A stretch of DNA of 64,000 nt from Bryum argenteum (Eukaryota; Streptophyta; Bryopsida; Bryales; Bryaceae). Position numbers and translations under genes: made by a program. The notes beneath the pieces are model-generated. The model was not told where the DNA came from. It did not search any database and was given only the letters and a program-made list of their open reading frames with translations. The stretch is taken from positions 3,497,263-3,561,262 of the forward strand of contig CM073330.1 in NCBI GenBank assembly GCA_037043015.1, given 5' to 3'. Shown piece by piece: positions 2 to 58,296 of the stretch. Position 1 is the first letter of the stretch. Every line of letters begins with the position of its first letter.

Positions 2-3000
2 GTTTTTGAAGATGGTAGGTGTGAGTTTGGATTTGTTTGGGCAACCTGTAACTGCGCATTTTTGTGTGCCTACTTCGAGTCCTGTCCAGTTACTGAATTT
101 TTCAATTTTGTTCATTTGTATTTGTAGTGCTTGGAGGTTAGCAGTGAGGGCGGCTAAATCGTCAGCGTATGCAGCGGAATTGATAGTTGTTTTTGATGTG
201 CCAAATTTATATCCGTAATTTCCTCTTTGTAACCATCTGAGGAGAGGTTCTAAGAATATGATAAAGAGATATGGGCTTAATGTGTCACCTTGGATGGTGC
301 CTCGTTGGATTGGGATTGGTTTCGTTTGTCCAAAGTGTTCGCCGGTGTATATGGTGGTGGAATGAGAGTAGATATTTCCAATTAGTGCAACAGCATCTTC
401 TGGGAAGCCAAGGTCTTTCATTATTGCTAGAAGTCTTGCGTGGTCCAGAGAACCAAAGGCGTTTTTGAAGTCGATGTACATAATGTAAATGTCTTGGTTT
501 GTGATTGTGGCATCTTCAAGTGCAGCTGTGATAAGTTGGATTTGTCTTGAGGTGCTTCTTTCGGCGCGGAAGCCTTCTTGGGTGTCATGAAGTATTTGGT
601 GATGTTCGCCATAGGCTGATAGAATGAATGTAAGGGTGCTGGTAAAAAGTTTATATATTGTGTTAGCTAAGGCAATGGGTCTGTGGTTCGGGAGAATTGA
701 GGGGTCGCCTTTTTTGTATAGTAATATAGTAAGGCTTGTTTTCCATGATGCGGGTATTTGTTTTTGTTTATAGCAGTGGAAGAAGAAAAGGTATAAAAGT
801 GTGTGAAATGAGTCTGGCATATGTTTGAGGATGGAGTTGGAAATCTTATCTGGGCCGGGGGCTTTGTTTTGTGAAAGATTTTTTAGGCAGATGTTGAAAA
901 TTTCGCGATTGTAGTATGTATGTAAAGGGATTCCTGGGGTACCTCTCTTTTCAAGGATAAAACCATTTAATTCATGCCATGGATATTGGCGTACTGCACA
1001 TGTACAGTTTTGAGAATGTTCCGATTGATAGTAACATGTTGGAATGGTTGGGCGATTAGTGATGGATTGTTGTGAAAATATTTCCTGAGCTATATCTACT
1101 GGGCTAGTAAGGATTTTGTTGTTGTGAGTGGTGATGCAGTTGAGTGGTGGAGTTTCTAGGTTCTTAAAAACTCGATTGTTTATTTTCTTGGGGCTAATGT
1201 TGTAGAGGTGTCTGTATTTGGTTATGGCCTTTTTGATGGATTGACGAGTGTATTTCGTGGTGATGGCACGTGCTTTTTTGTTTGCGGACTTAGCTAAATC
1301 GGCTAGTGTGTTTAGCCAGTCTTGCTTAGTATCATCTGTTTGTGGAGGTGGTGGTATGTTTGTAGTCGTATGTTGTTGTGTAGCTTGTATTATTGGATGT
1401 GTTCTCCAATTTTCATTGTTGTTAGCAATGTAAATTGTTTTACGGGTAAGATGGTAAGTAGAGAGGTGTTTTTTCCATTCTTTTTGTGATTTTCGTGGTA
1501 GGAAGCCACCTTGAAGATTGGTGTTTGGGGTGAGGGTAGGGATGAGAGGGGCGGTACATGTGGTGAGTAATGTTTCTGTGATGTTGTTTATGAGGTGGTC
1601 TAATTCCGCACAGGCATTGGACCATTCTGTGGGGGTGAGTTGATCATGTTGTAGAGTTGTTGAGAGGTTGTTGATGGAGAGTGCGTTTTGTTCGAAGAAT
1701 GTAGTGATGAATGTGTCCAAGTTAGCTTGTGGGATGGGGTTGAGAATCCGCGCGGGTTTTGCAGCAAATATTGGTGGAGGTCGTGCTATAAGTAGTTGTT
1801 GAGGGATATGGAGTGTTACAGGAGAGTGATCTGAGTTTAGTTCTTGAGTGTGATTGGTGGTAGATGTGAAAAGATGGTGATTCGAAGAGTTTATGTAGTA
1901 ACCGTCAATAAGACTTGTTTCGGTATAGTTGTGTCCGCCTTGTCTGGAAAATGGGCTGTTTGTGGGAATATAGGTTAGATTAAGACTATCTGTGAATGCA
2001 CGCCATTGGATGTCTTCTTCTTGTGGTGTTGTATTGGTGTGTGCGTTTTGTTTACCAATGAGGGCGACGTCTCTATTAAAATCGCCGCAAAGAATTTGGA
2101 TATTGTTTTGATGTGTTTGTATGTGTGTAGATATTGATTGTTGAATGAGGGGGATCAAACCTATGTCTGCTGGGTGAGATGGCATATATAAATGAATGAG
2201 TAACCACGGTGTGAGGGGTTTGTTTTCTATGTGAATAATTTGGAGGTAGGGTGAAATGTTTGCCGCGGTTGGAATTTTGGTAATGTTTCCCGGAGAGGCA
2301 TAATTTTGATGTACGAGGGTGAGAAGGCCTCCTCTAGCGGGGGTGTATGGCATTCGTTGTTGTATGCATCGGGTTAGCGCATGCGTGTTATTGAAAATGA
2401 TTTTATATTGTGATAGCAAGCGTTGAATGTATTTTGTGGATTTATTGGCGGTGAGTTTTGTTTCTTGAATAGCTATTATTGCAGGAAAGGTTTGTGTAAG
2501 ATGGTGAAGATTTGGCAAGGCGGTGTTGAGTGAGGCTGCGTTCCAGGTAATGATTTGAGTAGTATATTGGGTGGTAATGTGTGGATGAGGTTGTATGGGG
2601 GGTGCGGGTGGTAGTGGCGGGGGGTGGGAATATTCAGGAAGTTTTTCAGTGCATCTTAGAGCTTCTATTATTAGTGTTTCTGGGAGGTACGGGAAAGTGT
2701 CTTTTATTGTTTGTAGGGTAGCGGTGTTTGCATGTTCCAGGATGTGAGTATAAAGTTGTTTATGGATGGTTTGTGTGGGTTTGATAATGTTTTGTTGAGT
2801 ATCCAGAAAGTGTATGTATGGGTGGGGAGTATTTAGGTGTCTTGATGGGATATTTGGTAGTCGAGAGAGTTTATTGAGGAGAGATGTTGTCCAGTGTGGG
2901 ATAGGATTGGATGTTATATGTTGTTCGCACATGGTAAGTTGTGGTCCGATAGTGGTAATGAGAGCATATAGTACGTTAGGTGGGGGAAATTGAGGGTGGT

Positions 3001-3177
3001 TGTGTATGTATCGTGTGAGGCATGGATATCTCTGTATACTGTTGTGGTGGTCTGAATGTGTGATTTGAATGATGGACGAGAATATTGTTGCTAAATGTTT
3101 ATACTCGGGATGTAGTATTATTGTATTTGGAATAAAATACTTTTTGTTGTGTCTTCTATGTAAAGCGGGGTGGGAGT
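2..3177 (-). CDS. LINE ORF2, second part: APE endonuclease and reverse transcriptase (partial)
   Basis: I translated sample stretches by hand across this region (3177-2530, 1020-961, and the motif regions) and met no stop; the frame exits the left edge. Endonuclease motifs in order: TWNAASL, IQETKL (catalytic Glu), LCGDFNRD, and LNSDHSPV near the domain end. Reverse transcriptase motifs follow: NKAPGPDKIS, the SWKTSLTILLYKKGDP block, QEGFRAERST, YIDFKNAFGSLDH, QRGTIQGDTLSPYLF, and the catalytic YADD box at 158-169. The protein nicks target DNA and primes reverse transcription of its own RNA. The in-frame TAG just above 3187 lies in the inserted element, not in the LINE. Few or no lesions in the LINE frame itself suggest a fairly recent copy disabled mainly by the insertion. 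Confidence 0.9.
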
Positions 3178-3671
3178 TGTCAAACTCCTATTTCTTTGGT
3201 TTTCTGCATTTAGCTTAAATTTTTCGAATTTTTGTGAGCATTAGGAATAAAAGGGAACTTTTCTTTGGGTTTCCTTAGTTTAGAAAGGGTAGAAATAAAT
3301 AAAAAGGTTTAGCCCCGGTTAAAGGGTTTTTGGAGGTTACCGGCTGGGAAGGTCAACCCGGGTATGGTAACCCTGGATCACCGGTGTCCTGGCCGGGCGC
3401 GGGTTGGGGATAATGGGCGGCGGGCCGACCCGGCCTGTCAACCCTAACCCTTTTTCACGGCGGCCCCATTTCGCGCCACCGCTTCTCTTCCCCTCATACG
3501 GCATCGCCCGCTCCACGTTTTGTCGTGTTGCAGCCAGGGGTGTCGTCATCTTGCGAGCGCGGAGTGTGGTGTCGGTAGGCCAGGAGATTGCGCGCCAGGA
3601 GAGTGTACCCGCGTTGCAGAGAAGTGCGTGAGCTGCCTGCAGTCAGGGTGGAAGTGCGGAGAGCGGAAGCT

Positions 3672-5751
3672 ATGGCGCCCAAGGAGAATGCAGCTAAGGG
3701 CAAATCTCGCAAGGAGAAGTCCCTACCCGAAGCCATCCGGGAGAGGGGAGTGCACCCGGAGATCCCTGTCAAGGAAGCTCACCGCAGACAGCTGAAGGAA
3801 GACCTAACGAGGATGGGCTGCATCGAGTTTTACAACCGACCTTGGAACCTGCAGAGGCCCGCGTTTCTGAAGGAGGTCCAGACAGGAGAGCGCACCGCCA
3901 AATTCCAGGAGGACATGGTGCGGGGGCAGCCTGATGTCTGGGAGAGGGGGCTTTGGAGGATCACCTACAGCTTTGCTGAATCCGAGGTGGGGTACATCAC
4001 GGTGCGGGAAGACGAAGAAGTGCAGCGGAGCTTCTCCCAGCCTGCACATGAGCATGACGGATTCAAGGTGGAGCATTGCCTCGATTCCGAGTTGAAGAGG
4101 GTGTGCAGCTCCTCCTCCCCCCATACTTACCCCGGACAGCCTTGAGCGTTGCCAACAAACTCGCCAAGGCTATCCCGAGTCATACGCGGGGAGGCGGTAA
4201 TTGGATGGCACATCATCCTGGAGGACGTAGTAATCCGGCAAAGGTCGAGATAAACAATGGCAAGGGTTGCCCATTAACTCCATTCCTATTCCACCTCTAC
4301 GACGCCTACAACTGCATGGATGATGATGAGGCCGCGCAATACGCCAAGGCCTTGGAAGAGAGGCGAACCAGGATCCCAGGAGAGTTTCCCCCGGAGGAAG
4401 GAGCAGGACAAGCCGGGACATCAAGGCCGGGCCGATCCAAAGAAGATCGGGGATACCAATGAGTCGCAGAAGAGGAAGGGACAGCAGTTATTCCACCCCG
4501 GGCCCCCACCACAACCTCACCAGGAGTACAACAGGAGACTCCAACAGGGGAGTACAACTCCTTCTCCCCCATCACCCAAAGACAGGGAGTGGCTCGGAGA
4601 GAGAGCCACTGCCCGTCGCAGACTGGGCAATGCGCAATGCGCACTGTGCCACGGCAGAGGCAGGCCTCTCAACCAACATCCCGAGGCCCCATTCACCTAG
4701 ACGACTCAGATGAGGAGGACCCTGTGCGGCAAGCAACCCCTCCATGAGAAGGATCTCCTCACGATCCGGACCAGGGGAAGGAGTTAGAGGATCCGCTGGA
4801 AGGAGAGCCCCAGCCAAGGAAGAAGAGGAAGACCACCCCGGAAGTGCATCCGGAGTTGTCAGCAAGCCTCTGGATGGGATCCCCTTCACCCAAGCTGAAG
4901 AAGCCTTCAAAGAGAAGGAAGGTGACCTTTGCATCAGATCGGGGAGTAGGAGAGACGCAACCTCCCAAGAAGGTGGTACCCCTGGCCAAGGGGAAAGTGA
5001 AGAGGAGCATTCCGAAGAGGGGGTACGCGGGTCCAGGACAGGAGAGGGTGCCCAGGGAAGCGACGACTGAGGAGAGCAGCGGGTCCGAAACCGAGTCCAT
5101 GGACATACCCCGGGAGCCTGCAAGACCCCCATCTAACGCAAGAGAGTCCAGCACCCCCGCTCCAAGGAAGGAGACTGTCCCGGAGAGAAGGAGAGGAGCT
5201 ATCCCCGGTGCACCTACTCCCCTGTTCAGGATTACGGAGGAGAATCCCCTGAACCCCATCCAGGAGACCCTGCAAATGTGCATGGAGGAGCACAAGGCGA
5301 TGTATCGATCGCTCAGGGGAGTAGGGGAAGTCCTGAAGACGAATACGGTGGAGCGCTACCCCGAGCTGGTGAGAGCCATGCAAGAGCAAAATGAGATGCC
5401 CTCAACAAGGAGGTGAAGGAGTCATGGGATCGAAGCCATGGATTTCTCCCTCAACGTCCTGACCCAGGATAAGGACATCGAGGCGTTGAAGAAGTATGTC
5501 TCGACTCAGAATGGATGGGCGCGGGCTAACCTATTCGCCTTGCAGAAGACTCTGGTCACGCCAGGGGAGGCTCAGGCCAAGGCGCGGTTATTTGATGCGC
5601 ACCTGCAGGGTGATGGCGCGGATGCCGCGGTGCGCATGGCTGCCTTCTTGAAGAAGTATACGGCGCGGATAGAAGGTGCCCTGGAGGAGATGCGGATCCT
5701 CCTCAAGGAGATGTATGAGCGGTTCCCAGGAGAGGCGGCGGCGAGGTAATA
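3672..5751 (+). pseudogene. gag-like gene of the inserted element, broken
   Basis: The coherent sequence starts at the ATG at 3672 (MAPKENAAKGKSRKEKS) and is basic at its start, then has a folded-looking stretch (FYNRPWNLQRPAFLKEV, GLWRITYSFAE). It passes through several frames to 5751: a stretch ending DDDEAAQYAKALEERRTR, an acidic stretch (IHLDDSDEEDPV), a lysine-rich patch (KLKKPSKRRKVTFASDRG), and a helical C-terminal segment (5438-5749, KKYTARIEGALEEMRILL). Each frame change leaves recognisable sequence on both sides, so this was one gene now carrying several frameshifts. Helical plus basic plus low-complexity content suits a structural gag-type protein. No CCHC knuckle was found, and I do not recognise the family. 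Confidence 0.5.
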
Positions 5752-5931
5752 AAGAACAGAGGCGGAGACAACCTGGGGTGTTACGGTGCGAACAGGGGAA
5801 CAAGAGGACCAGTGGGACTCCTTCGTGTCTCCGCCCCTTAGCCGAAGCTGATCCAGGGAACAGATGGTGAAAGAAGCCCAACCCGATGTTGAGATGGCAT
5901 GGGAAGAGGAAGGCGATCCAGAGAGTAATGG

Positions 5932-6714
5932 ATGAGGCCCACGGCTCGTGCCTGTGGTAGCGACGGAGGTGCCCCCGGAAGAGTCGAGGCCATGAATGTT
6001 GCCCCATCCATTTCTCGCAGAACGCAAGAAGTACAAAAAGCGAATGCCACCACCGAAGCTCAACCCGAACCTGGGGTAGAGGAAGAGGTTCTCCCCGCAC
6101 CAGAGAGGCAAAGCGAGATCCACCCGGGAGGAAGTAGTAGAGGCACCCTCACCGAGGAGGAGAGAGAGCATCCACCCGGACAGGAAGTAGGAGGGGCTGC
6201 TTCACCGATGGAGGAGGAGATAGCTGCTGCCCCACCAACCCTGGAGACAGAGGAGCACGTCGAACCAGGGGAAGGTGTCCCCGTGGTGGTCCCACCCGAG
6301 TCGGCAATGGATGAACAAGCTCCCCCTGGAGAGGAAGCCGTTGTGAGTGCTCCCTCCGAGTTGGGAGCAGAGGAGAAGGTGCCACTTCCGGAGGTGCCAC
6401 TTCCGGAGGTGCCACTCCCGGAGGGGGAGGTGCCACTCACGGGGGAGGTAATCGATTGCTTACCTGGAGCAGGGGTAGCTGCGGGGACTCCACTAGGAGA
6501 GGAGGTAATCAAGGAGATCCAGCCCGAGCCGGAGTTGCCATCAGTCGAGATGCCAGAGGCTGACGAGCCAGGGCAGCAGGATGGTACTCCAGGAGAGGAG
6601 TTCGTCGCAGGAGGGGAAGTCACTCCAGGGAAATCAAGGGGCCCACCCATTGAGGAGCCTGCCCCGGACACTACTGACCCACCTCTAAGCGAAGTCGAGT
6701 CGGGGTACCATTGA
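5932..6714 (+). CDS. acidic, proline-rich low-complexity reading frame
   Basis: A 260-residue open frame inside the inserted element, dominated by Glu, Pro, Gly and Val with very few aromatic residues. Near residues 150-170 a short unit (VPLPE) is repeated three times in a row, at about 6379-6423, from a 15-bp tandem DNA repeat. Acidic clusters alternate with PP and PG steps, so the product would be disordered. It follows the gag-like remnant on the same strand and may be its C-terminal extension or a second product. No enzyme motif is visible, and the frame could be open partly because of its skewed composition. Confidence 0.35.
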   Translation: MRPTARACGSDGGAPGRVEAMNVAPSISRRTQEVQKANATTEAQPEPGVEEEVLPAPERQSEIHPGGSSRGTLTEEEREHPPGQEVGGAASPMEEEIAAAPPTLETEEHVEPGEGVPVVVPPESAMDEQAPPGEEAVVSAPSELGAEEKVPLPEVPLPEVPLPEGEVPLTGEVIDCLPGAGVAAGTPLGEEVIKEIQPEPELPSVEMPEADEPGQQDGTPGEEFVAGGEVTPGKSRGPPIEEPAPDTTDPPLSEVESGYH

Positions 6715-6974
6715 TACCCGAGACCCCCGTGAGTGGTTCCGGAGGAAGTTGTCCCGGATGAGGTTGATGCCCTCTCCCGGGAACGGAACCCTTGGATGTG
6801 GAACCCGAAGGAATCACACCTGTGGGAGGACCGGATCCAAAGGAAGGTGCGGGTGGCCATCCGGAGGAGCGCGAGAACCGGAGGTGACCAAAGATCCTCG
6901 CGCAAGTGGACCAGGGGAGTGAAGACAGGGGGTAGCGGCCAAGAGGCGCAGACCTACCCTGGTTGGGTTTGATG

Positions 6975-8135
6975 GCCAACCTCGCATCAAGTTGACCAGG
7001 CTAGATCTATCTAGCGTTAGGTTAGAAGATAGGCATTTAGTAGTAGAAGGACGGAGGTGTGTTCACACCATTTTGGACTTGTAGTAGTTTTTGTGTGTTT
7101 GACTTATAGGCGGTCCAGAGAGGCCACGTGGGCCTTATCCCGTCCGGGTATTTCGTGATCCACTAAAAGCGGATCCGGAGCATGAAACCCGGAGTAGCAT
7201 GGAAGTACTTAGCCAAGGAATGTTCTCATTCTTTGGGTCTTTGTTTGTATCATCATCATTCTCGAAGTATCTAGGGGTTGCGGCCGCCTTTCCAAGTCTA
7301 AACCGTCTTCCTTGTTGTTTTGTGTGTGTGTGGTGGTGCAACTAAGTCCCTTGCATTGTTTGCTTGAAGATCCGGAGGGAAGGTTAGTGTTGGTGAGATC
7401 TGTACTAGTGTCCGTGGTAAGGAGTTTTGGCGATTAGGCGTCACTACGAGTCGAGATTTTAGGTGAACAGGGGTTCCCTAATATTCCCCGGGGACAGTGG
7501 TCTAGCGCGGGAAGTTGGTCATTTGCTGCGGAGAGTGGATCTTAGTCCTCCTACTATCCCGGATCTCAGATCCAAAGTTGTCCCTTTCTACCTTCTATCC
7601 TGGTCCGGGAATTAACGTGTGAGTAGCCATACCAACAGGGGAAACATTGGCACCCTTATAGTGACTGCATCAAGGGTTAACAATCCTGGTATTGAAGGGG
7701 GCGAGTCTAACCCTGGCGAATTCGACCTAAGAGAAAAGAGCGTTGTGGGTGTGTTTATGTGTTGTGTTGAGTAGTGAGAGAATCGAGGAGAGAGGAAGTC
7801 AAGTGCCCTAAATCAAAGACTCTAAACTAAGGAGAACCCTCGATGGACAAACGAGGTAAAACTAAACCAACTTGGAGATATATTGGTTGACCAGGGTAGG
7901 AGGAGTTAAACTCCCGGAAGGAAACCAGGACAGGAGAAGCGAATTGCTAACCAGAGATCAGCACCATCCTGGTTAAAGGAGAAGTAAGACAGACAAAAGA
8001 TAGAAGCACCGTCACGGGAAGGTTATCCTAGTCACTTTGGAGCTCAGTGAATCCCCGCGGATCGATTAATCCGGATATCACCTCTGAGAGTGTTCTTAAC
8101 ACTTAAAAGAACACTAAAGGGGAATATCGCTATCA
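6975..8135 (+). other. 3' non-coding part of the inserted element
   Basis: No convincing coding sequence. Close to the end there is an 8-bp inverted repeat, GTGTTCTT at 8090-8097 and AAGAACAC at 8107-8114, with a 9-nt loop, 21 bp before the insertion border. It could be a 3' hairpin used by the element or a transcription end signal. The end (CTATCA) is not the CTRR expected of a Helitron. Confidence 0.4.
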
Positions 8136-11100
8136 CGAATTACGACAGGAGTGTAGGACATTTGGCATAGGGCCGGGGTTTGATTCTATGTCTCCACAAA
8201 ATAAGAGAAATAGGTAGTTTGGGACAAAATATTGGGTGAAAGTTATAATTTTTGGTTTGCGGTGGTGAAGTTTGGTATAAATTATGAAGGTAGTGGTGAC
8301 CGTGTTGAACGAGTTTGGTAGTGGACATACTTGTGGTGATATGCATCCTTGTGGCGTTTGTGTGAACATAGTTTGTGAGTGAATATATGAGCATGTAAAT
8401 GTTAAGGTGGGTTGTGAGGATTGTTTATGCATTATATTCCAATAATGTTGTGGTAGTTCATGTATGAGGGTGAGAGTTGTAGAAATGTTGTTGCGGTTCA
8501 TGCCTATTGGAAGTTTGTGGGTTATTGAGATTGTATGTTGCGTATCTCTTAAGAAGTTGGCCAATGTTGGAGTGAGTTTCTTGTATGCTAATGAGCTTTT
8601 CCATGTGGTTTGTTTCAAATTGAGGTGTGTCGTTTGTAGTGGTGTGGTGATGTATAGAGATGCGATTTGTGTGTGCGCATTTATATATTGTTTGGTAGTA
8701 TAAAGTTGTGGTAGGGGAAATTTGTGCAAGGTATAAGGGTGATGTTTTCTTTGTTTGTTGTGTGAAGATTTTTGAATTTTGTTTTTAGGCCGAATGATTA
8801 TGTCTTGGAAATATGGGTGAGTTGTGATGTTGTAGGTTATATGTGTTGATATAACATAAGTATGCATATGAGAAGAGTATGAAAGGTGGTGATAGAAGTT
8901 TGTTGGTGCATGGATATGTCGAATGAAGAGACTAGGTGAATTTGGTGGGTATGAAAGGGAGGTTTGGAAGGGGGTTTTGAGTAGTAAGAGTTTTGTAGGG
9001 AATATCGATGAGAGTATGTACGTATGAGTGTGGAGTTTTGGACGGACGGTCGGCCGGTTTGGTGAAACCGATGGGGAGCTTTGATGTGACGTATGTATTG
9101 TCTCTAGAGGGCATAGAAGTTGAATGAGGATTGATTTTGTGGTGTAGTATGTGTGGTAAAAAGATTTAGGTTTATGTAGATTAGGGAAATTTGTTTTTGA
9201 TGGGGATTGAGAGGCTTGAGGGAAGCCCTGCGTAGTTAGAGACAATGTGGTTTTTCCGTTATATTTAAACAATGCTGGGAGGTGTATAATGTGGTTGTGT
9301 TTGTGTTTAGTGAGGCGGGATATTGTGATTGGGTTTTGAAGATGAATTGAGACTAATAGTATTTGCATGAGAGTGGAGGGTGAGCATGATGTTAATTTGG
9401 TGGTATATGTGGTAGAGAAAGGTTTTTCCATTGGTCCGAGTGGGTGTTGTAACAAATAAAATAGAAATTTGTTGGTAAGTGTGATAGGGAGATGGTCATA
9501 GAGTTTGTGTATTTTGTATGTGAAATTCACATTTTTCTCTTGTCCTTTCATCTCTCTTGTACACTCGGCTCTTCTTATTTTATTACATGAGGAAGAGATA
9601 AGCTTTTGAGGGTGAGTTGGGATTAACAATAATTGTATGGGAGTGGGGGGTGGATGTGATGTGAAATTGGTGGTATATATGGTAGGAAAAGGTTTTTCCA
9701 TTGATCCAAGTGGGTGTTGTGATGGATAAAATAGAGATTTGTTGCTGATGGTGTTGGAGAAACTTTTATGGGTGGAATGGTCATAGAGTTTGTGTAGTTT
9801 GTGTATGCAATTCATATTTTTCTCTTGTCTTTTCATCGTCTTTGTCCTCTCGGTTCCTCTTATTTTATTACATGTAGAGAAAGAGATAAATTTTTGAAGG
9901 TGAGTTGGGACTAATAGTATTTGTATGAGAGTGGGATGTGAACGTGATGCTAATTTGGTGGTATATATAATAGGAAAAGTTTTATCCATCAATGGGAGTG
10001 GGTGTTGTGACAAATAAAATAGATATTTGTTGTTAAGTGTGTTGGAGAAAGTTTTATGGGTGGAATGGCCATAGATTTTGTGTAGTTTGTATGTACAATT
10101 CACATTTCTCTCTTGTCCTTTCATATCCCTTGTCATCTCGGCTTCTTTTATTTTATCATATGCAGAGAAAGAGATAAGCTTCTCTTGTTTGTATAGGAAG
10201 TATGTTATTTTTGTCAAAGACTCATGAATTTGTTGGTTTGGGACTTTGCATGAGTAGGTGGGATGGGTGTTGTGTGTTTGGTATATGGTAGGAAGGGCTT
10301 TGTATAGTTGTGTGGTATCGAAAAGTGAGGACTTAGGGTATGTCGAATGGACACTATATTCACATCTACCCCATTCAAGGTGAATAGGATTTATTTTGTT
10401 ATGATTGTTTTGTCTAAATGATAGAATTGAGGTATGTAGTGTGTGTTTTGAGGGGTACACAAGGTTTAGGGGGTGAAAGGCTAGGTTTAGAGTTATATGT
10501 ATTTGTTTAGTGTGGTAAGTGGGGTGGAAAATATGTATATTGTGTTGGGATGCTAATACATTTTGTTTTGGCAAGGGATTGGTGTGATGTTTAAGTAGTT
10601 TTAATGATAATATTGATTGGAAGTGGATTCTCGCCATCATGTCTGTGGAGGGTGTGGAGGGTGATAGTTCATGCAACGTAGGAGGGCTGGGCTCCCATTT
10701 ACCAAAGGAGTCAGCGGTATGAGGGTTTGGGGCGAAAGTTCTGGCAATGGTGCAAGGTAAGTGAAAGACTTGGTGGGTGTGATCGATACAAGCTGTGGCG
10801 TGAAGAGCAAAGGTTTTCTTGTCGAATGGGTATGTTTTTAAAATTTTATTGTGTTGATGTTTTTGTGGTTGATGCAATGTGCTCTGGTATGCTATTTGTG
10901 TGAGGAGGACGTGGGTAGTGTGGTAAGGCCACGGTGTTACCAGCTTGTTGTGTGGGTTTGCGGCAGCTTGGGTATAGGGCGATATCTGCCGGGTATAGAC
11001 TTTTAAGGGGGGCAGTGAGCTGGTCGGGTAGGGTAAGGAGGCTACTAAGCGGGTAGGGGCGGGTAGGGGGCTCACTGACTGGTTATAAGCAGGTGAGGGG

Positions 11101-11612
11101 TGGTAAGCCCAGGTATCAACCGTTAGTGTGCTGTACTGGGTTGGAGGGGCATATCTATCGGGCGGCAGGGAGGGAGACTCGTGCATGCGCTCACAAACAA
11201 CGGCCGAAGAGGTGATAACTCGTTTATTGTGATGGGGGCTTTTTGTGTGCAGGTTTTTTGTTGTGCTCTTATCACGACTCGTTGTGTGTATTTCATGGGG
11301 TTTCAGCATGCATTGTTGAGAAGTTGGGTCAGAGGTTAAATTAGGGATCGACAAGTTCGAGAAGGGGAGAAAATGAGCAATGTCACAAGCTGAGGTTATA
11401 GAATGATGTTGACCTTGAGAGATGTGATAGCTGGATTGCATAAGTTTAAAGAAAGGTGAATGCGAAATTTCAATGGGCCTGGAATTGAAAAGCCAAGGGT
11501 CATTGCTTTGAAGCAATGACAGAACAGAGAGAAGTAGTTGTATCGCTAAAAAGATACTAAGAAGTGAACAGGCATTTAGAAGCCCTTGACTGTGTATAGT
11601 GTTGCTACTCAT
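8133..11612 (-). CDS. LINE ORF2, first part: long leader ending in a 2A-type motif
   Basis: An 1159-codon frame from the ATG at 11612, which overlaps the ORF1 stop (ATGAGTAG, 8 nt shared). Residues about 11-34 form a hydrophobic segment (ACSLLSIFLAIQLLLSVLSL) that could be a membrane anchor or signal. The rest is rich in His, Thr, Ser, Pro and Asn, matching a sense strand low in G. Residues in the middle form three tandem copies of a roughly 95-residue unit. The frame ends GDIESNPGP (residues 1140-1148), the conserved 2A core at which ribosomes skip a peptide bond between G1147 and P1148. It then hits the insertion and stops at an added TGA. In the intact LINE it continued into the endonuclease. 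The leader resembles no family known to me. Confidence 0.8.
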   Translation of the reverse strand: MSSNTIHSQGLLNACSLLSIFLAIQLLLSVLSLLQSNDPWLFNSRPIEISHSPFFKLMQSSYHISQGQHHSITSACDIAHFLPFSNLSIPNLTSDPTSQQCMLKPHEIHTTSRDKSTTKNLHTKSPHHNKRVITSSAVVCERMHESPSLPPDRYAPPTQYSTLTVDTWAYHPSPAYNQSVSPLPAPTRLVASLPYPTSSLPPLKVYTRQISPYTQAAANPHNKLVTPWPYHTTHVLLTQIAYQSTLHQPQKHQHNKILKTYPFDKKTFALHATACIDHTHQVFHLPCTIARTFAPNPHTADSFGKWEPSPPTLHELSPSTPSTDMMARIHFQSILSLKLLKHHTNPLPKQNVLASQHNIHIFHPTYHTKQIHITLNLAFHPLNLVYPSKHTLHTSILSFRQNNHNKINPIHLEWGRCEYSVHSTYPKSSLFDTTQLYKALPTIYQTHNTHPTYSCKVPNQQIHESLTKITYFLYKQEKLISFSAYDKIKEAEMTRDMKGQERNVNCTYKLHKIYGHSTHKTFSNTLNNKYLFYLSQHPLPLMDKTFPIIYTTKLASRSHPTLIQILLVPTHLQKFISFSTCNKIRGTERTKTMKRQEKNMNCIHKLHKLYDHSTHKSFSNTISNKSLFYPSQHPLGSMEKPFPTIYTTNFTSHPPPTPIQLLLIPTHPQKLISSSCNKIRRAECTREMKGQEKNVNFTYKIHKLYDHLPITLTNKFLFYLLQHPLGPMEKPFSTTYTTKLTSCSPSTLMQILLVSIHLQNPITISRLTKHKHNHIIHLPALFKYNGKTTLSLTTQGFPQASQSPSKTNFPNLHKPKSFYHTYYTTKSILIQLLCPLETIHTSHQSSPSVSPNRPTVRPKLHTHTYILSSIFPTKLLLLKTPFQTSLSYPPNSPSLFIRHIHAPTNFYHHLSYSSHMHTYVISTHITYNITTHPYFQDIIIRPKNKIQKSSHNKQRKHHPYTLHKFPLPQLYTTKQYINAHTQIASLYITTPLQTTHLNLKQTTWKSSLAYKKLTPTLANFLRDTQHTISITHKLPIGMNRNNISTTLTLIHELPQHYWNIMHKQSSQPTLTFTCSYIHSQTMFTQTPQGCISPQVCPLPNSFNTVTTTFIIYTKLHHRKPKIITFTQYFVPNYLFLLFCGDIESNPGPMPNVLHSCRNS
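8169..8192 (-). other. 2A-like ribosome-skipping motif DIESNPGP
   Basis: The codons for D-I-E-S-N-P-G-P sit at 8192-8169 and satisfy the D-x-E-x-N-P-G-P consensus. A hydrophobic run (YLFLLFCG) comes just before it, as in many 2A peptides. The family fact is that this motif makes the ribosome release the chain at Gly and restart at Pro. Here it would separate the 1147-residue leader from the endonuclease/reverse transcriptase. Confidence 0.85.
9310..10190 (-). repeat. three in-frame ~290-bp tandem repeats in LINE ORF2 leader
   Basis: Three copies of about 285-290 bp; each contains a landmark like AGAGATAAGCTT (near 9592, 9882 and 10168) and encodes a unit of roughly 95 residues. Shared residues include KGQE(R/K)N, KLHK(L/I)Y, H(S)THK, SQHPL and FP(I/T)IYTT. 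All copies stay in frame despite many substitutions, which suggests constraint on the encoded unit. Boundaries are approximate. Confidence 0.75.
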
Positions 11613-13683
11613 TTAGATTATTGGTCTCTGGAAGTAAAGAGGGGGCAGGGGCTGGAGGACCTCCTTGAGGTTCACTCAGGGCAGAAAAGATACCGCCAAT
11701 CTGCAAACTATATTCTCGAGACGCCGAGGTCAATAGTTGCAATTGTTGAGTCAAATGGAAGTGTTGTTGCTGTTGAAGTGTAACAACTGTCTCGATCTTC
11801 TCTGTTGTGTGAGAGTTGACGGTGGAGCCCAAGGAGGAGATGTGAGTCTTCAAGCGGTCTTCAACGGCGTGTATGGAGTCGTTGAATTGTGAGAGAGTTG
11901 GAGTAGGTGGTGTCTCATTCTTCATGGCCGTGATGGCTTCGGAAATAACCTCCCTGGTTGGACGTTCATCATGAGATTTGGCAGATAAAGGAGGGTTGGA
12001 CCCTTTCAAGCTCCTAGGATGTGGTGCAAAGTCGATAAATTTGCCGAGACATGGAACTGCCTGTTTCTTGTGCCATTGTGTGTAGACTACCGAATTTAAG
12101 CATCGAACGGTGGCAACGCCGTCGTGACGGTCCATGTGGTCTCCTTCTGCCCGATTGAAAGAAACGGTGTGCACGTTGTTTGGCCCGAGCAACTTGTGTA
12201 ACGCGGCAGTTATGTCTTGTTGTGCTTTATAAACAGGTATTCCACGAACCAACAGAGAGGTAGCAAGTGCATCTGGAGAGTTAGGGTGGGAGTTTCTCAC
12301 AGATGGAAGAGAAATGATTAGTCTCTCATTAGCAAAATGAATAGGAGTGTGGAGGAGGTATTGCCTAGACTTATCCGAGGCAAGGGTAATCTCAGCATAA
12401 TCTAGATCTTTTGTGCGTTTGGTAACGCCAACAAACTCTAAGTTAGTGCCACCAACATATCCTAGGCGTGTGAGCTCACTAAGGAGTTCACGGGAGGTGA
12501 ATTTGGTTAGTGCAGGACTTTTAAAAAGAAGTTTTCTATTGGTGGCTGTTGAAGGAAATTCAAAAGCTTTCTCAACTTTCCCTATAACGTAAGAAAGATC
12601 TTGCAATTGTAAAGTGAATATGCGAGTGCCTTTTAGAAGTGCTATACCATCTACCGAGGGGTTAAGAAGGTCCACCTTGAGGAAGCCCAACCATTTCTTT
12701 GTTTGGGGATGGACCAAGGCAACTATGGGCTCTCTAAATCTATTAGAGAGTTTGATGCCCATGGCCTCAAAACGGGCCAAGGCCGCCTCCTGTACATCCC
12801 CTTTAGTCATTGAATGGTATCCATGATCAAAACGAATTAGAATTTGGTGGGTCTTAGAGAGACCCGTGTTAGTATCGATTTCAACGCCAAAGGGGATTTG
12901 GGTTAGATGAAGGAATTGCCCAGACAATCCATCTGGACGAGTAGAAGGGTACAATAACTGCGGTACATGGGGGAAGGAGTGGCGGCAGGAGTGAAACTCA
13001 CTCACCTCTGAGTCAGGCATCCCGCAGGATCCATTTGCGATTGCTGCATAGAAAGTGTATTCTTGGACTCCTCGTTCAACATTCAAGTTTTCATGTACCG
13101 AAAATGAAAGCCAGAGGTGCTGGACATAATCAGCAAAGGTAGGTGAGGCAGTGATGGACTGGTTACGAGTTTGAGCAGGAGGAGGTAGCGTTTCCTTGAT
13201 GACGTGCTGGTCAGGGGGTGCCAATTGGACGTCGGTGGAGGTGGCCATCTCAAGTGCGCCATTATGTTGAGCTCCATCATCTGGGGCAACAGGTCCATTG
13301 GTAGGGACTGCCTTGCTGTGAGCCGAAGAGTCAACATGTTGGATGGTGGCAGCCGGAGCTGCTGATCGGGAGTTCGATGCGGTTGGTGACAAGAGTTTGT
13401 TAGCTGAAGCAGCAGGAGTACGAAATGCTACCGAGGAGTGCGATGCACGATCAGCTTCGAGATCTCCATCCAGTGAACGCTTTCTAATGCGTGAGAGGGA
13501 GTTGTTTGATGCAAGCGGGTCTTGTTCCATTGGCTGGTTAGGCCCACATCCTTTAGGCCAGTCCCTGTCTGCAACTTGTTCAGTCGACAGAGCGAGGTCG
13601 CTGAGCTTCGCCGTCATTTGCTTTTTCTTCATGGATCCGGATCTTGTCGATCGGACACCCTTGATAGACTTGGATGGTGCCAT
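11605..13683 (-). CDS. LINE ORF1 protein
   Basis: A 692-residue protein starting MAPSKSIKGVRSTRSG, with a basic, disordered N-terminal quarter typical of nucleic-acid-binding ORF1 proteins. The centre (about residues 190-530) looks folded, with two stretches that could be RRM-like (for example ATSLLVRGIPVYKAQQD followed by HDGVATVRCLNS). The C-terminal 100 residues contain a likely coiled coil with a QQQQ run (TVVTLQQQQHFHLTQQLQ). No CCHC zinc knuckle is seen. It lies directly 5' of ORF2 on the same strand, and its stop overlaps the ORF2 start, so the two are probably read from one RNA by termination and re-initiation. Base composition is balanced, unlike ORF2. The RRM reading is an inference. 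Confidence 0.8.
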   Translation of the reverse strand: MAPSKSIKGVRSTRSGSMKKKQMTAKLSDLALSTEQVADRDWPKGCGPNQPMEQDPLASNNSLSRIRKRSLDGDLEADRASHSSVAFRTPAASANKLLSPTASNSRSAAPAATIQHVDSSAHSKAVPTNGPVAPDDGAQHNGALEMATSTDVQLAPPDQHVIKETLPPPAQTRNQSITASPTFADYVQHLWLSFSVHENLNVERGVQEYTFYAAIANGSCGMPDSEVSEFHSCRHSFPHVPQLLYPSTRPDGLSGQFLHLTQIPFGVEIDTNTGLSKTHQILIRFDHGYHSMTKGDVQEAALARFEAMGIKLSNRFREPIVALVHPQTKKWLGFLKVDLLNPSVDGIALLKGTRIFTLQLQDLSYVIGKVEKAFEFPSTATNRKLLFKSPALTKFTSRELLSELTRLGYVGGTNLEFVGVTKRTKDLDYAEITLASDKSRQYLLHTPIHFANERLIISLPSVRNSHPNSPDALATSLLVRGIPVYKAQQDITAALHKLLGPNNVHTVSFNRAEGDHMDRHDGVATVRCLNSVVYTQWHKKQAVPCLGKFIDFAPHPRSLKGSNPPLSAKSHDERPTREVISEAITAMKNETPPTPTLSQFNDSIHAVEDRLKTHISSLGSTVNSHTTEKIETVVTLQQQQHFHLTQQLQLLTSASREYSLQIGGIFSALSEPQGGPPAPAPSLLPETNNLNE

Positions 13684-14271: not shown

Positions 14272-17227
14272 TCAATAGAATCTTGAAGACTGATGGACGC
14301 ACTCTCGTGACGCCAGAATCGCCGCCTCACCGTGGCGAGTGTACCTTATGCCATCGGTGTTATAGTAGAAGCCGTCTCTAAATGTCATCATTGGTGCAAA
14401 GGCCTCGTTGAAAGCTATGGTGTCCGCTGATTCCGTAGATTGTGGAATGGATGGCACCATTGGTCTCGTTTGAATTGGAGTATCTAGAACCACCTCTGGT
14501 ATCTCTGATCCTTCCTCAAAGCCATTAGGTTCCACAGACGAATGAAGCCCGTCGTCACATGAGTTATGATCGAAGCGGGGTACATCGTCGCCATACTCAC
14601 GCGCGTCGTCGTGACGTTTGCCAATGTGTATGGTGCTGGAATAGAAGTATCCGCTTCATCTCCAAGCTCGTCCTCGTCACTACCGCCTTCCTCTGAACCT
14701 ATGTTCATCGGATCTTCACCCTCGGAAATGCCAACGCTGGTGCTCCTTGTTGCACCTGTCATCTCAGGGATCTGAAATTGTCCTTGGAAGTTGTCAAACA
14801 ACTTTGTATACAAGAAGTTTAGCCTTTCCAGGCTATCGTCAATGACAATGATCTCCGATCCATGGAAACCTCCATGAAGGATTGTCGGAATGGCCGTTGT
14901 AATGTTATACGCAGCCAAACCCCAACCAATTGGCAAATACGCATCCACCAGTCTAGAGAGCTCGGATGGCGATCGCTCGAGTCTATCACCCTCCGACGGT
15001 TGATGTGTCTCACTCCATTGATCGTGAAATACAAGTGGTAGTGGACGGTCCCTTAAACATAATTCCTGCTTGGGGAAGTATCAACAGGGTGTTGCATATG
15101 AACAACAACACCTCCAAATGGTTGCACCGCTTGTCAGAATCGACCACACCCCGTAAAGTTGAGGGCATACCGATCAACCGAGTTTGCGCCAAATGCCCAA
15201 CATCCATGTCGTTGAGTGCCACCTCGGGAAGTTTGAGCTTCGCGAACAACTCGGCATTAGCAAACACGGCCGTGGTGGTAATGAGAGAATACGTTCCATC
15301 GTTCAACGCCCGTCATCCACGCCGACAATTGTGCAATAACTTTGGTGAATCGCTTCTTCTTCCTGGGACCGTCTCCATGCCTTCCCCACCACGCCGACAA
15401 TCAACAACCCACAAGTACGATTGTGTCAACTGCTGGACATCAAGATGAAATAATCCTTCCCAAGCTCGAACCATAAGATGATCTGGTGTACTGGTCTGAG
15501 TTGGCCTTCGAACTTGTAACACCCACTTCCATGTGACGGTAGTGGCACCACCTTCATCTGCTGATGCTTCCACTTCTCCATGTGTTCTTGTTGCAATGTC
15601 CTGATAGTGAACCTTGATGGAGGTGGGAATAAGTTCACTTATGTCTGCCAACTTGGACACCTTCTCTCGTGTAGGTTTAGCCCATGCGGCTTTTGTGTCT
15701 TTGGCCAAGTCCTTGCCAAATGCATCAATTTGCTCCTTGCCCCCGGGAAAATAATTCCGTACAGATATGTGGAAGAACTCTTCCATGGAATTAGGTGAGC
15801 ACTCTTTGTTGGACACCATTAACCAACGAGTGATATTAGCGACCGCTTCTTGTCTCATGATCCGGTCAACTGCACCTGCAATAGTACGGGGATCCCTAGA
15901 CGCATCCTTGATGGCGTGAAAGTAATATGATTGTCGAGGTCTGCGGTTGTCCTCCCCCACTGGCTTAGCTGCACAAGACTTGACTAGCCGTAGATAAGCA
16001 GACTCGGGAACCACATTGAGCGGCCTCAACCAATTCATGGTCATTCGCTTCCGATGCTCCCGTACATCCACAGTAGGATCTAGGTTGTTCTTGTCTGCAA
16101 ACGCCTTCCACTTCTTCTCCTCTTCCTTGCTATAAAAGAGATAGCCATCTTCGTAGTCTTTGCACACTTGAAGGATAGCTTCGTAACACTCGCGCCGAGG
16201 ATTCCACGCATGAATGGTCAAGTCATGCATCTGCTTTGCCAACCTCTTGATTGTTATATCTTTGTTGCCCTCAACAAGGTTCTTCTGCACTGCATTAGCC
16301 GCACACACCAGAGCTTTAGCCCTGCGTTCATCGTCTGCGCGAAACCAAGCTATCAGGCTTCCCATACAACTCCCAAATCTCGCGTAGCTTTCTCAAGTCC
16401 TCATCCATGGTGGAATATTTTGTCCTATTCCATTCCTTCTTGTTGACCCGCGCGGACTTCGCTAGGTACAATGCAGGATCATCGTATACGACAAATGTTG
16501 CCTCCCGCATTTCAAAGATGTTAACAAACTCAGCATGTGAGAGTTTGTGTTGGGCAACCTCTTCCTTCGCAAAATTGCAGTCGCAACTATGTGTTGTCCA
16601 TCCACCGCTCCCAAATGATCCTCCTCAAGCCAACACAACCGAGAGTGTGTTGTACCGTGAATAGACGCTAATCCGTGTGTATCAAATATGCGTTGGAACT
16701 CGTTGTGCTCTTTTCGAGGGGAATGACACCTCTTCTCGCCGAACCAACCACACCATCGCCGGTAGTGACATCCACAATGTACTTGATCGGACGAAGAACC
16801 AACTTGCTCACACAAGTCTTGTTCTCTGGATGTCTCATAAAGTCATAAACCTCTCTAACTCTCTTTGCAGAGAGTACCCGATGGTTTGTCAAAGGACTCT
16901 CCACTTGGATAATCTTGTCGATCTTCACCTCGAATACAATGTCCCCCCATAGTGATCCTTTCGCAATTTCTCCTTCAGTAGGTATCGGTGCTAGGAACTT
17001 ACTTGACGTTGAGGCCTCCAACGCCATCCTCGGTTCCGACTCTGAATCCTCTTCGTCCTGGTCCGATACTTTTGAAACTCGTCCTCCACTGCCGATACAT
17101 TCAATGAAGAACTCGGTACATAAGCGCATGCTCCATCTTTGGCCGGAAACCTCATGGTTGTAGACCCACTACCCCTACCACGCGCCCTCGATCCTCGTCC
17201 GCTTGACCTCGCACCACTTGTAGCCAC
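14272..17227 (-). pseudogene. decayed gene with possible ParB/sulfiredoxin-like segment
   Basis: Minus-strand coding runs through at least five frames, so the gene is broken. It may begin at MATSGARSSGRGSRARG (17227), an Arg/Gly-rich start. A segment follows (AKRVREVYDFMRHPENKT, SKLVLRPI) and then, after a frame change, LGAVDGQHIVATAI. Spacing of RPI and a VDGQH(I) motif recalls the ParB/sulfiredoxin fold, in which this motif binds nucleotide. The longest piece (16365-15313) is rich in helices and Trp (WLRPLNVVPESAYLRL, ITRWLMVSNKE). The C-terminal part (14948-14484) has ILHGGFHGSEIIVIDD and an acidic SEEGGSDEDELGDEAD patch. A related fragment lies at 21.2-22.0 kb. The ParB assignment is inference; the family is otherwise unknown to me. 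Confidence 0.45.
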
Positions 17228-55500: not shown

Positions 55501-58296
55501 ATCACCTCTCAGAACAAGTCTTTAAATTTAGTGAATCGCTCGTTAGTGCTTGGACTCTTCTGTTTTGCTTATAGCGAAGAGCTTCTGTATATCTTATTTG
55601 TAAACTCTTGAAGCATTTTAATATCCAATCATCATATGGGGTTCGTTCGATCATTGGGTTTGGATCGCTGACTAAACGAGTGTCTATTCTCCCTTTCCAT
55701 GAATTGGCAGATTGGTGTGATCACTCCTTACGAAGGGCAGCGTGCGTTCATTGTCAATAACATGGCTAGAAATGGCTCTCTGCGTCAACAGTTGTACAAG
55801 GAGATAGAGGTACTTGAAAGCCTCTCTTTTCCCCTCAAGAATCCGGCCACAATTTCCTTGGTCAGAAGCTAACGTGCATCATGGTGTCCAGGTCGCCAGT
55901 GTGGATTCCTTTCAGGGGCGTGAGAAGGACTTCATCATTCTTTCTTGTGTGAGGAGTAACGAGCATCAGGTAATTAAGCAAAATATACCAGCTATACGTT
56001 CAGTTCAGTTATCGGGTTAAGATTGTAATACTTAGTCGTATCTCAGTATAGGTGTAGGTGATTGAATGGGATTGTGTAATATTCAGCTTACGCTTGTCGT
56101 GCTATGCTACAGGGAATCGGGTTTCTGAATGATCCACGGCGCCTTAATGTCGCTCTTACACGAGCGCGCTTTGGAATCGTGATTTTGGGCAATCCAAAGG
56201 TCCTCAGCAAGCAGCCTTTATGGAACACGTTGTTGACTCATTATAAGGTACGGGACTACTCCTATTATTCAGATTTATTTGAAAAATTGTAACGCGCCTC
56301 TGGTGTGGCGTGCATGTTCCAATCGTGCCTCGTTTCGGGGTCTTCGTTGTTATTTAGTTAGTATAGGTATCCAACTTCTTATACTCATTTCTTCAAAATA
56401 CTGAGATGTATGAGTCTTTCATTAGCACTTGACACGGATTTGGGTTATGGGTTCAACTTCTTGGACCTGTGGGACATTAGGATCATTTGGAGATCAATGC
56501 CAAGGATGTGTTCAATGCACGTATTACCTGAAGCAAGGTGGCATGTGCCTGCCTTGATTTGTAGAAAGTTCAATCATACTGAGGCATTGATGTGCAGATG
56601 AAGGTCGAGGGGTGTAAGGTTAAGGATTTTAGGTTTAGGATGTTAACTCTGGAGGCGCTATACCATGTAGACTTCGATCTCTTTTGAACTGAACTGAGAA
56701 AAAATTTAAGATATCAAACTTGGAAGACGAACTCTGATCTGTAAATTTCTTATTGCTGGAAACAGGAGCATGAGGTATTGGTGGAGGGCTCATTGAACAA
56801 CTTGAAGCAGAGCATGGTTCAATTTCAGAAGCCTAAGAAGGTGTACAATGACCGTCGCGTGTATCCTGGAGGTGGACCTGCTTTGGGCCCTGGAGAGGGT
56901 TTTGTTCCAGCAGCTACTGCAAGTGCAGCAGCTGGGGCTCCTGTCAATGACCGTCGAAACGGACGAGCCCGGTCGGTCGATGGGCGAAATGGTGAATACT
57001 TTTCTGCAACCTTCTCAAGTTGCTATAATCAAGTCATTGTTGAATGCATCATGGCATGATAGCTTTAGTTGCTCTTGTCGACTAATACAGAAAGGATCAT
57101 GACATCTTTCGCTAATTAAACTGACATGTGATTGCAAAGTCAAGCTTTACTCTGAACTTCTGTAGCTCGGTATGTTGCATATCCTGTTATGAACCTAGCA
57201 AAAGCTTCATTTCTGAAATTTTACCCGCTGTATCAATGCAGGTGGGTATATGCCATTTGGTGCATTAAGCAATGGTGGAGTTCAGAAAGGAGGAGTTCCT
57301 CCCCATGCGGGCCTAACACCATCTCGAGGTGTACCACTGACTGGATTTCCGAACAGCCCTCTCACGCAGCCTTATGCAATTCCTTCCAGGGGAGGCATGC
57401 ATGGCCCGATTGGAGCAATACCGCAAGTGCCACAAGCAGGCCAACGCGGCTTTGGAACAGGCAGGGGGAGCACCAGCGGTCCTATTGGTGGTCATTTGCC
57501 TCATCACCAGGCCTCACAGCAACAAACTGCATTTGGATTTGGTGGGCTTGACAGTCCGGCTACTCAGCCCTCTCTCGGTGGTCCCATGACGCAACAGGGA
57601 CTCCTGACCCAGAACATTCCATCCTTGAGTCAGAACATTCGAGATGGATTCAACCTCGGAGGCATGTCCCAGGACTTCTTCGGAGAGGATTTTAAGTCTC
57701 AGGGATCACATGTTGGATACGGCGGGCAGGACTTTGCGACACAGGCTGGATTTGGCATGGATTATAGCACTCAGTCAAACCAAGGCGGATACGGTGGTGA
57801 TTTCATAACGCAGAACTCACAACCAGGTTACTCACATCAGTCAGTCAGCAATGACTTTATCTCGCAGGTGAGCAACACGAACCTTGAGGACTTGGCTTCT
57901 CGTACTGTAGTTATCTCCACGTCGGTATATATTAACTCAAGTATGTTGTTTTTGTCACGAACATGTTTTGACTTTGCTCTTTGATAAGCAGGACTTTTTG
58001 AGTCATGCTACCGATGGACTGTTCACTCAAGGGGGATTTAACGATCGGACTCAAGACCTTCCATCTACACAGAATCATTACGGTCTTGGAGGTCTTCAAT
58101 CTCAGGTGAGTGGAAGCTGTTGACATTGTCTATGTAATTACGAGACTCACCGTGGCTTTCTGGTATCTAAATATGGGTTGCTTTATTGCAGAATTCATTG
58201 GGTCCTATGTACACCCAGCCTTTCACGCAGTATAATCAGCCTCTGAATACCCAACCTCAGCAGCAGCAGGCTGGGCAGCGCCGCTTCAATGGCTAA
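49537..58296 (+). CDS. UPF1: UPF1 RNA helicase
   Basis: Twenty-five exons join in phase to 1248 residues, the usual plant length. Exons: 49537-50010, 50778-51029, 51176-51346, 51537-51587, 51861-51953, 52052-52147, 52301-52351, 52489-52607, 52749-52857, 53193-53315, 53497-53568, 53811-53882, 54027-54093, 54181-54323, 54490-54561, 54733-54861, 55058-55213, 55351-55464, 55711-55809, 55892-55969, 56113-56247, 56766-56991, 57242-57867, 57992-58105, 58192-58296. The Cys/His domain (about 115-275) has [15 protein letters not shown]. Superfamily 1 helicase motifs: GPPGTGKT 489-496, DESTQ 635-639, GDHCQLGP at 660, YRMHP at 701, [10 protein letters not shown] at 825, and LNVALTRAR at 858. The C-terminal 250 residues are Gly/Gln-rich with many SQ and TQ sites, the usual phosphorylation targets. 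UPF1 unwinds RNA with ATP and triggers nonsense-mediated decay, binding UPF2 through the Cys/His domain. Confidence 0.97.
50489..50608. repeat. hairpin with inner tandem repeats in UPF1 intron 1
   Basis: Perfect 24-bp inverted arms (50489-50512 and 50585-50608, containing TCTAGCACTTTCTGATA). Between them are three copies of a unit of about 24-26 bp of the type TCTGATAGAAGGGCTGCATC. In the pre-mRNA this would fold as a stem. Confidence 0.85.
53035..53096. repeat. short tandem and inverted repeat in UPF1 intron 9
   Basis: GAAACATATAACTCACCTGA is present twice in a row with a 25-bp period and is followed by ATGAGTTATATGT, its partial inverted copy. Confidence 0.8.

Follow-up and report, generated by a model that had tools for sequence, protein, structure and literature searches.

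Anatomy of the element and its family

The 64,000-nucleotide window of Bryum argenteum (C10:3497263-3561262) carries on its minus strand one copy of a multi-subfamily long interspersed nuclear element (LINE) of the APE (apurinic/apyrimidinic endonuclease) type. This work concerns the first part of its second open reading frame (ORF2), a long segment ahead of a 2A (StopGo) motif, which is termed the leader here. The element comprises the following features, listed in the order of translation:

11605..13683, minus: ORF1, 692 amino acids, open from ATG at 13683 to TAG at 11607-11605; predicted RRM-like folds and a C-terminal coiled coil
11605..11612, minus: ORF2 start overlapping the ORF1 stop, ATGAGTAG; ATG at 11612-11610, five bases ahead of the ORF1 TAG
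8172..11612, minus: ORF2 leader, 1147 codons up to NPG, stop-free; the frame is open over 11612..8136
11508..11585, minus: N-terminal hydrophobic, signal-like leader segment containing the top 17-mer of the leader
9333..10181, minus: three in-frame tandem repeats of about 288 nt (about 96 codons) each within the leader; spacings of 270, 285, and 288 nt
8169..8339, minus: conserved C-terminal leader module ending in 2A, common to other copies
8169..8195, minus: 2A motif GDIESNPG/P with the L-rich upstream context FLLFCG, from a sequence match
3178..8147, minus: inserted repeat of 4,970 bp with TG...CA ends; target-site duplication ACTCC at 8148-8152 and 3173-3177
2..3177, minus: ORF2 past the 2A, with APE endonuclease and reverse transcriptase from Pfam matches, running on beyond the window

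The sequence-only reading of this locus had described a LINE whose ORF2 opens with 1147 codons before GDIESNPG/P, free of stops for more than 1100 codons and containing in-frame repeats. All these points held. The endonuclease and the reverse transcriptase share one frame according to Pfam, which identifies the LINE as APE-type, and 1147 residues lead up to the NPG of the motif at 8195-8169. The ORF2 frame of the leader is free of stops, whereas the two remaining forward frames contain 56 and 53. A chance open frame was therefore ruled out (at least 50 stops in each other frame of this leader), and the pooled leaders described below gave the same result. The spacings of the three repeats at 10181-9333 are multiples of three. 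The gaps seen between them were read from a protein alignment and necessarily consist of whole codons. The ratio of nonsynonymous to synonymous substitution rates (dN/dS) between the repeats was 0.88, 0.95, and 0.76, with roughly flat differences over the codon positions.

The AlphaFold model of ORF1 had a mean pLDDT of 46, with blocks reaching 81 in the C-terminal half. Foldseek returned RRM proteins as the best matches to this model (E = 1e-8 to 1e-7, low TM-scores). The Pfam matches of ORF1 stayed under the cut-off, and its profile gave no hits among the PDB sequences.

A search of the genome (258.8 Mb, 25 contigs) yielded, self included, at least 44 matches for the endonuclease–reverse transcriptase region (EN-RT) at 63-100% identity, at least 64 homologous places for ORF1 at 34-100% identity, both on many contigs, and at least 40 matches for the leader. 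Related copies share ORF1, the overlapping ATGNNTAR stop/start, the leader, the 2A, and EN-RT; therefore, the leader is a trait of the family. The overlap, as ATGNNTA[AG], was present within the first 12 bases in 27 of 29 leader pieces, and the two misses had been cut without an ORF1-stop anchor. Of 36 pieces matching the 2A region, 30 carry D[VI]ExNPGP exactly when the last 2A of each piece is counted; in the other six, the motif was changed or cut. The core octapeptide was retained down to copies of about 63% endonuclease (EN) identity. The L-rich context upstream was kept in the 30 exact motifs and not in the 63% EN-identity group. In PMC12846837, an Asp at position 12 of the 2A goes with an L-rich (LLLLSG) upstream class, which the window hexapeptide FLLFCG resembles. 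According to PMC5972666, active 2As conserve the Pro and the Gly of this motif, and both residues are essential.

Among the fetched loci, 26 contained both the ORF1 end and a downstream 2A region. The leader was open from the ORF2 AUG to the 2A in 11 of them, with lengths of 199-1147 codons. The concern raised in the sequence-only reading, that other copies might lack the leader frame or carry frequent stops in it, is answered by these 11, even though the leader is broken in the remaining copies.

Reading frame, texture and selection in the leader body

For the pooled analysis, nine leaders were drawn from the 11 open copies, among which three agree at about 99%. Two near-identical twins of C10_390008 were set aside, as were the 15 broken leaders. 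These nine contain no stop in 4159 codons of the ORF2 frame, as compared with 180 and 176 in the other frames. The window leader shares about 1.1 kb with that of C2_19443352; removing C2_19443352 leaves no stop in 3724 codons versus 160 and 161. The leaders were selected for openness; nonetheless, at a stop rate of about 4% per codon, even 200 open codons are improbable.

This strict openness is combined with a random-looking texture. We defined the body for this purpose as the leader minus its first 50 and last 70 codons. The pooled codon-position information (mutual information) was 0.0012 bits for the body versus 0.0152 for EN and 0.0285 for ORF1. The value lay under the maximum of 300 shuffles in all nine leaders and near the shuffle mean in eight; that of C7_17084695 was about twice the shuffle mean, still under the maximum. 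The amino-acid composition of the body followed that of shuffled nucleotides with r = 0.986 (EN 0.925, ORF1 0.839), and the Jensen–Shannon difference in composition between frames was 0.003-0.004 for the body versus 0.018-0.041 for EN. Pfam revealed no family in the window leader and no domain in a scan of six leaders. A captured host gene was rejected as the origin of the leader: a 1,661-base piece matched almost only LINE neighborhoods (14 rows including self, two matches of about 62 bases not being placed), and the six scanned leaders lack Pfam domains. Remnants of EN or ORF1 were sought in the window leader, and none was found besides the final 2A module.

The sequence-only reading had proposed a dN/dS check across the leader. 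It was run on 11 pairs, each against 200 null sets; x/200 denotes the null values at or below the observed one. Here, the body covers the aligned codons that precede the last 70, including the N-terminus where a pair aligns from the start. Three pairs showed a contrast with EN. Window v C2_19443352 gave a body dN/dS of 0.70 (null mean 0.79; 82/200) versus 0.21 for EN (0/200), C2_19443352 v C4_13372432 gave 0.86 (152/200) versus 0.25 (0/200), and window v C10_2892404 gave 0.63 (77/200) versus 0.23 (0/200). Five further body values were 1.21 (176/200), 0.60 (85/200), 0.94 (156/200), 0.67 (90/200), and 0.71 (84/200). Those of 0.94 and 0.71 say little, because the reference leader is itself broken (C9_2076217 v C10_14222600 and C8_15941600 v C10_8530800, with 6 and 30 stop codons). 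For C10_390008 v C3_18593558, the body row consists of three changes only. Elsewhere, EN values of 0.47 (9/200) and 0.57 (7/200) were obtained. The remaining EN rows were unusable. A misalignment or frameshift seems to affect the EN rows of C6_4525488 v C2_33768466 and of C10_390008 v C3_18593558, and two EN rows cover only 58 and 36 codons. Most usable pairs have a near-neutral leader body, whereas EN shows constraint in those pairs that could reveal it. Nonsense changes were below the null expectation in window v C2_19443352 (0 versus 2.3; 11/200) and in C2_19443352 v C4_13372432 (0 versus 3.1; 5/200).

The idea of a leader of about 1147 residues as one particular conserved protein was not supported. 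The lengths vary widely, alignments between subfamilies are confined to the last tens of codons, and the body evolves near-neutrally in most pairs.

Leader ends, turnover and the insertion behind the 2A

Only the ends of the leader look kept, namely the 2A module and, with moderate evidence, a hydrophobic N-terminus. In the last 70 codons, four pairs of the window clade gave dN/dS values of 0.49, 0.38, 0.20, and 0.34 (29, 8, 2, and 7 of 200). The top 17-mer of the window leader has a hydrophobicity of 2.49, a level reached by 5 of 300 composition shuffles, versus a body maximum of 1.36. Two hand-picked sets of 14 and 20 leaders, roughly one per subfamily, extended this observation. In 12 of 14, no 17-mer of the leader was more hydrophobic than the one near the N-terminus, the ORF2 frame was the most hydrophobic of the three at the N-terminus in 14 of 20, and the comparison with shuffles of the same composition gave a combined p of 2.3e-6 (20 leaders). 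M-x-S-T-P opens 13 of the 26 leaders listed. The 2A lies far from the start of the chain, with at least 199 residues preceding it in all nine open leaders measured.

Between these ends, the leader shows turnover. The stretches over which the window leader aligns with those of other subfamilies are limited to the last tens of codons plus a 210-nt module, which recurs near four other copies. Leader lengths within the EN clade of the window are 1147, 468, and 434 codons, and in another EN clade leaders of 231 and 200 codons stand beside a leader of the 1029 class. Relative to the leader of C2_19443352, that of the window is offset by 2163 nt (721 codons). The C5 copy (L074 plus L062, C5:2171300-2178700) has about 2,025 open codons ahead of its last 2A. 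Its leader opens with 617 residues, a dead 2A (NTGP), and EN residues 5-501. A second dead site (NLGP) then stands before a 2A that looks live, after which come EN residues 5-298, close to a TH run, and the final 2A and EN. The EN-RT of this copy contains one TGA. Extra upstream 2As, with or without EN, occur in four non-window leaders: C5, C9_4508500, C1_8423600 (where it reads NRDP), and C10_2892404, whose upstream 2A-EN piece may be a nested insertion.

Other repeated words were seen in the leaders. A GC-rich word coding for PPGLA occurs four times in the C5 leader and once more in C4_23570485, and variants of AATAGAGTGTTTGTTCGACC are present in six leaders. The leader of L075 (C1:8423600-8425800) is largely a tandem repeat (NTDIVKQKNTNI...), open in the ORF2 frame.

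The sequence-only reading had EN-RT begin after the 2A. The order leader, 2A, EN-RT stands, while the window copy itself is broken by the 4,970-bp repeat, beyond which the LINE resumes at 3177. The insertion interrupts ORF2 at LHS/HPALHRRH, and the uninterrupted motif PMPNVLHSHPAxHRRH is present in other copies. The window ORF2 frame ends 12 codons past the 2A glycine because of this insertion. End-to-end matches to the repeat occur at seven other places (92-93%), and an eighth place matches from 156 to 4970 (93%); three more places match over the full length at 84-87%. A direct repeat of at least 40 bases at the ends of the insert was looked for and not found. The insert may be an unusually long solo long terminal repeat (LTR) or an LTR-like, non-autonomous element.

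The open frame listed from 3187 crosses the window start and stops at C10:3493445, with 2334 codons in total. Pfam detected Exo_endo_phos at residues 213-383 (25.5 bits; cut-off 24.5) and RVT_1 at residues 828-1047 (100.5 bits). The flank beyond the window start (L001) contains PCIF1_WW and RNase_H matches, the RNase H following the reverse transcriptase. The PCIF1_WW match lies between these two enzymes (L001:5318-5707, minus; 51 bits, cut-off 31.1). The region also matched the PDB sequences of two PCIF1 proteins, 6irx and 6irv (E = 1.4e-5 and 3.6e-4). The catalytic motif of PCIF1 is NPPF. It aligns with AHPH in the LINE, and AHPH, AHPY, or AHTH is kept at this position in six copies; therefore, the usual PCIF1 motif is absent from the LINE domain. 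The AlphaFold model of the domain had a pLDDT of 36.6, and at least 150 places in the genome carry it. Judged by these similarities, it is a LINE-borne relative of a cap methyltransferase.

Two further features were seen in the window. An open frame at 57217-57984 presumably resembles the C-terminus of plant UPF1, and adjacent open frames at 14272-16842 on the minus strand may represent a broken transposase or a host gene. In the genome, the chlorophyll-binding family gave at least 90 matches, with clusters of weak matches at C5:8.16-8.41 Mb, C5:14.73-14.76 Mb, and C2:25.06-25.09 Mb, which we take to be what expanded ELIP genes would produce. One protein of this family resembles chlorophyll a-b proteins of chloroplasts; its highest-ranking structures are two long multi-domain LHC chains (9vfj), and next come 7xqp and 8htu, which are moss photosystem entries.

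Interpretation and relation to known systems

With the above results in hand, we consider it probable that the leader is a tolerated, neutrally evolving, obligatory stop-free read-through segment, kept off the enzyme by the 2A, and not a conserved third protein. Ribosomes ending ORF1 would reinitiate at the AUG that overlaps its stop, by analogy with SART1. They would then translate the leader with its hydrophobic, signal-like start, which may direct it to the membrane of the endoplasmic reticulum (ER). Next, they would cross a body whose sole visible requirement, in most leaders compared, is the absence of in-frame stops. Finally, the conserved 2A would release the leader, and translation would resume at the Pro to give EN-RT-RNase H. 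The 2A, not the leader, would fix the N-terminus of the enzyme; therefore, the leader would be free to lengthen and then drift. In-frame duplication, exchange between subfamilies, and the uptake of older 2A-endonuclease pieces may have served as routes of lengthening. The three proteins that one RNA would give in the sequence-only reading, if the motif works, would hinge on the predicted 2A activity together with coupled reinitiation.

Several observations weigh against this reading. Fifteen of the 26 comparable leaders are broken, as is expected of old copies. The three pairs with the body–EN contrast share lineages. For C6_4525488 v C2_33768466, the body dN/dS of 0.43 is low versus the null (9/200), and C2_19443352 v C7_17270847 gave 0.50 (32/200); weak constraint in some leaders is therefore possible. 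EN appeared unconstrained in C2_19443352 v C3_27923240 (1.05; 138/200) and in C7_17084695 v C4_1341588 (0.89; 79/200), a pattern as after loss of function. The deficit of nonsense changes was absent from the other pairs (e.g., 1 versus 2.4, 3 versus 2.2, and 2 versus 3.4), and for two other pairs the last 70 codons had values of 0.99 and 1.00. The leader body contains more Trp than expected (22 seen, 6 expected). Tested singly, only 7 of 20 leaders reached 0.05 or below for N-terminal hydrophobicity. The N-terminal T content is raised at all codon positions (0.30, 0.41, and 0.37 versus 0.22, 0.25, and 0.26 in the body), i.e., the hydrophobic N-terminus partly reflects a T-rich tract, and for this reason ER targeting is offered here as a proposal.

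The low body dN/dS of the pair at 0.43 and the signal-like segment that opens the leaders, unexpected from composition, are what a functional, fast-evolving secreted or membrane protein would show, with a signal peptide and a diverse body subject to relaxed selection or to selection driven by the host. The frame strictly kept in the open copies fits such a third protein as well. However, the six scanned leaders carry no Pfam domain, the composition is that of a random translation, and the codon positions give no signal. For most pairs the body dN/dS falls within the null, and in no pair is it clearly higher. We regard this explanation as unlikely.

We find it still more doubtful that the leader matters as RNA, i.e., as a low-G stretch for reinitiation, packaging, or spacing whose open frame merely lets ribosomes pass. 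Such a role would accommodate the G content of the window leader (only 9%), the T-rich tract after the AUG, the recurrence of the 210-nt module, the AATAGAGTGTTTGTTCGACC-like words in six leaders, and a GC-rich word coding for RPPGLA in two. The low G, which underlies the amino-acid composition of the body, is also found in EN-RT, however, with the same bias (10% G). The open leaders differ more than fivefold in codon number, and folding of nine leaders showed no consistent RNA structure signal, the z-scores of the body averaging between -0.44 and 1.05. It is highly improbable that the 2A is inactive, or EN-RT started elsewhere, with the open leader as a by-product: the six changed or cut motifs would suit this, but the core octapeptide is kept to about 63% EN identity, the 30 exact motifs retain their L-rich context, and stop avoidance is confined to the ORF2 frame.

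Beyond the stop-free, tolerated leader as such, we give even chances to a broader proposal. The body would be protein of hundreds to about two thousand codons without any sequence requirement, and the region would act as a one-way trap, where duplicated 2A-endonuclease modules and other in-frame DNA enter, lose the 2A, and decay stop-free.

Known 2As in non-LTR elements typically sit close to a protein end. They have reportedly been described in APE-type elements, namely L1Tc of Trypanosoma cruzi and sea urchin elements (work attributed to Heras in 2006 and Odon in 2013). The moss LINE resembles these in having an APE endonuclease, a reverse transcriptase, and D(V/I)ExNPGP in frame with the enzyme. 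It differs in its long, length-variable, apparently neutral leader before the 2A and in the overlap of ORF2 with the ORF1 stop. APE-type non-LTR retrotransposons with 2A are also reported in PMC4981915 and PMC5972666. In SART1, as PMC5972666 describes it, the ORF2 AUG overlaps the ORF1 stop and translation is coupled, which parallels the overlap in the moss LINE. However, the SART1 overlap is UAAUG and that of the moss LINE is ATGNNTAR, with no consistent RNA structure downstream among nine leaders (z = -2.37 in the window copy; -0.98 to +0.99 in eight others).

The sea urchin NLR signal sequences described in PMC4981915 combine an N-terminal hydrophobic signal and a 2A on one chain, a combination that the signal-like start of the moss leaders would match; there, the 2A itself is the signal, whereas in most moss leaders hundreds of codons separate the hydrophobic stretch from the 2A. 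Paavivirinae picornaviruses (PMC11512398) resemble the C5 and C9 copies in carrying more than one 2A per frame, but some of the extra LINE 2As are dead and lie within decaying duplicates. A plant LINE with a 2A or a long variable leader was not found in the open literature searched. The 2A in LINEs is already known; the long, variable, apparently neutral leader before it appears to be new.

According to the abstract of PMC12846837, there is no evidence that plant viruses naturally use StopGo. If our reading is true, a plant retrotransposon family using StopGo would provide a case from the plant nucleus. Long open frames are usually taken as a sign of a conserved protein; here, a frame of more than 1100 codons seems to be kept only for the passage of ribosomes to the enzyme. 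Under the broader proposal, it would be a natural case of a long translated sequence under selection against stop codons only. A 2A could then free sequence from protein constraint, and the family would offer a natural system for translated but unconstrained sequence, reading-frame growth, and annotation pitfalls.

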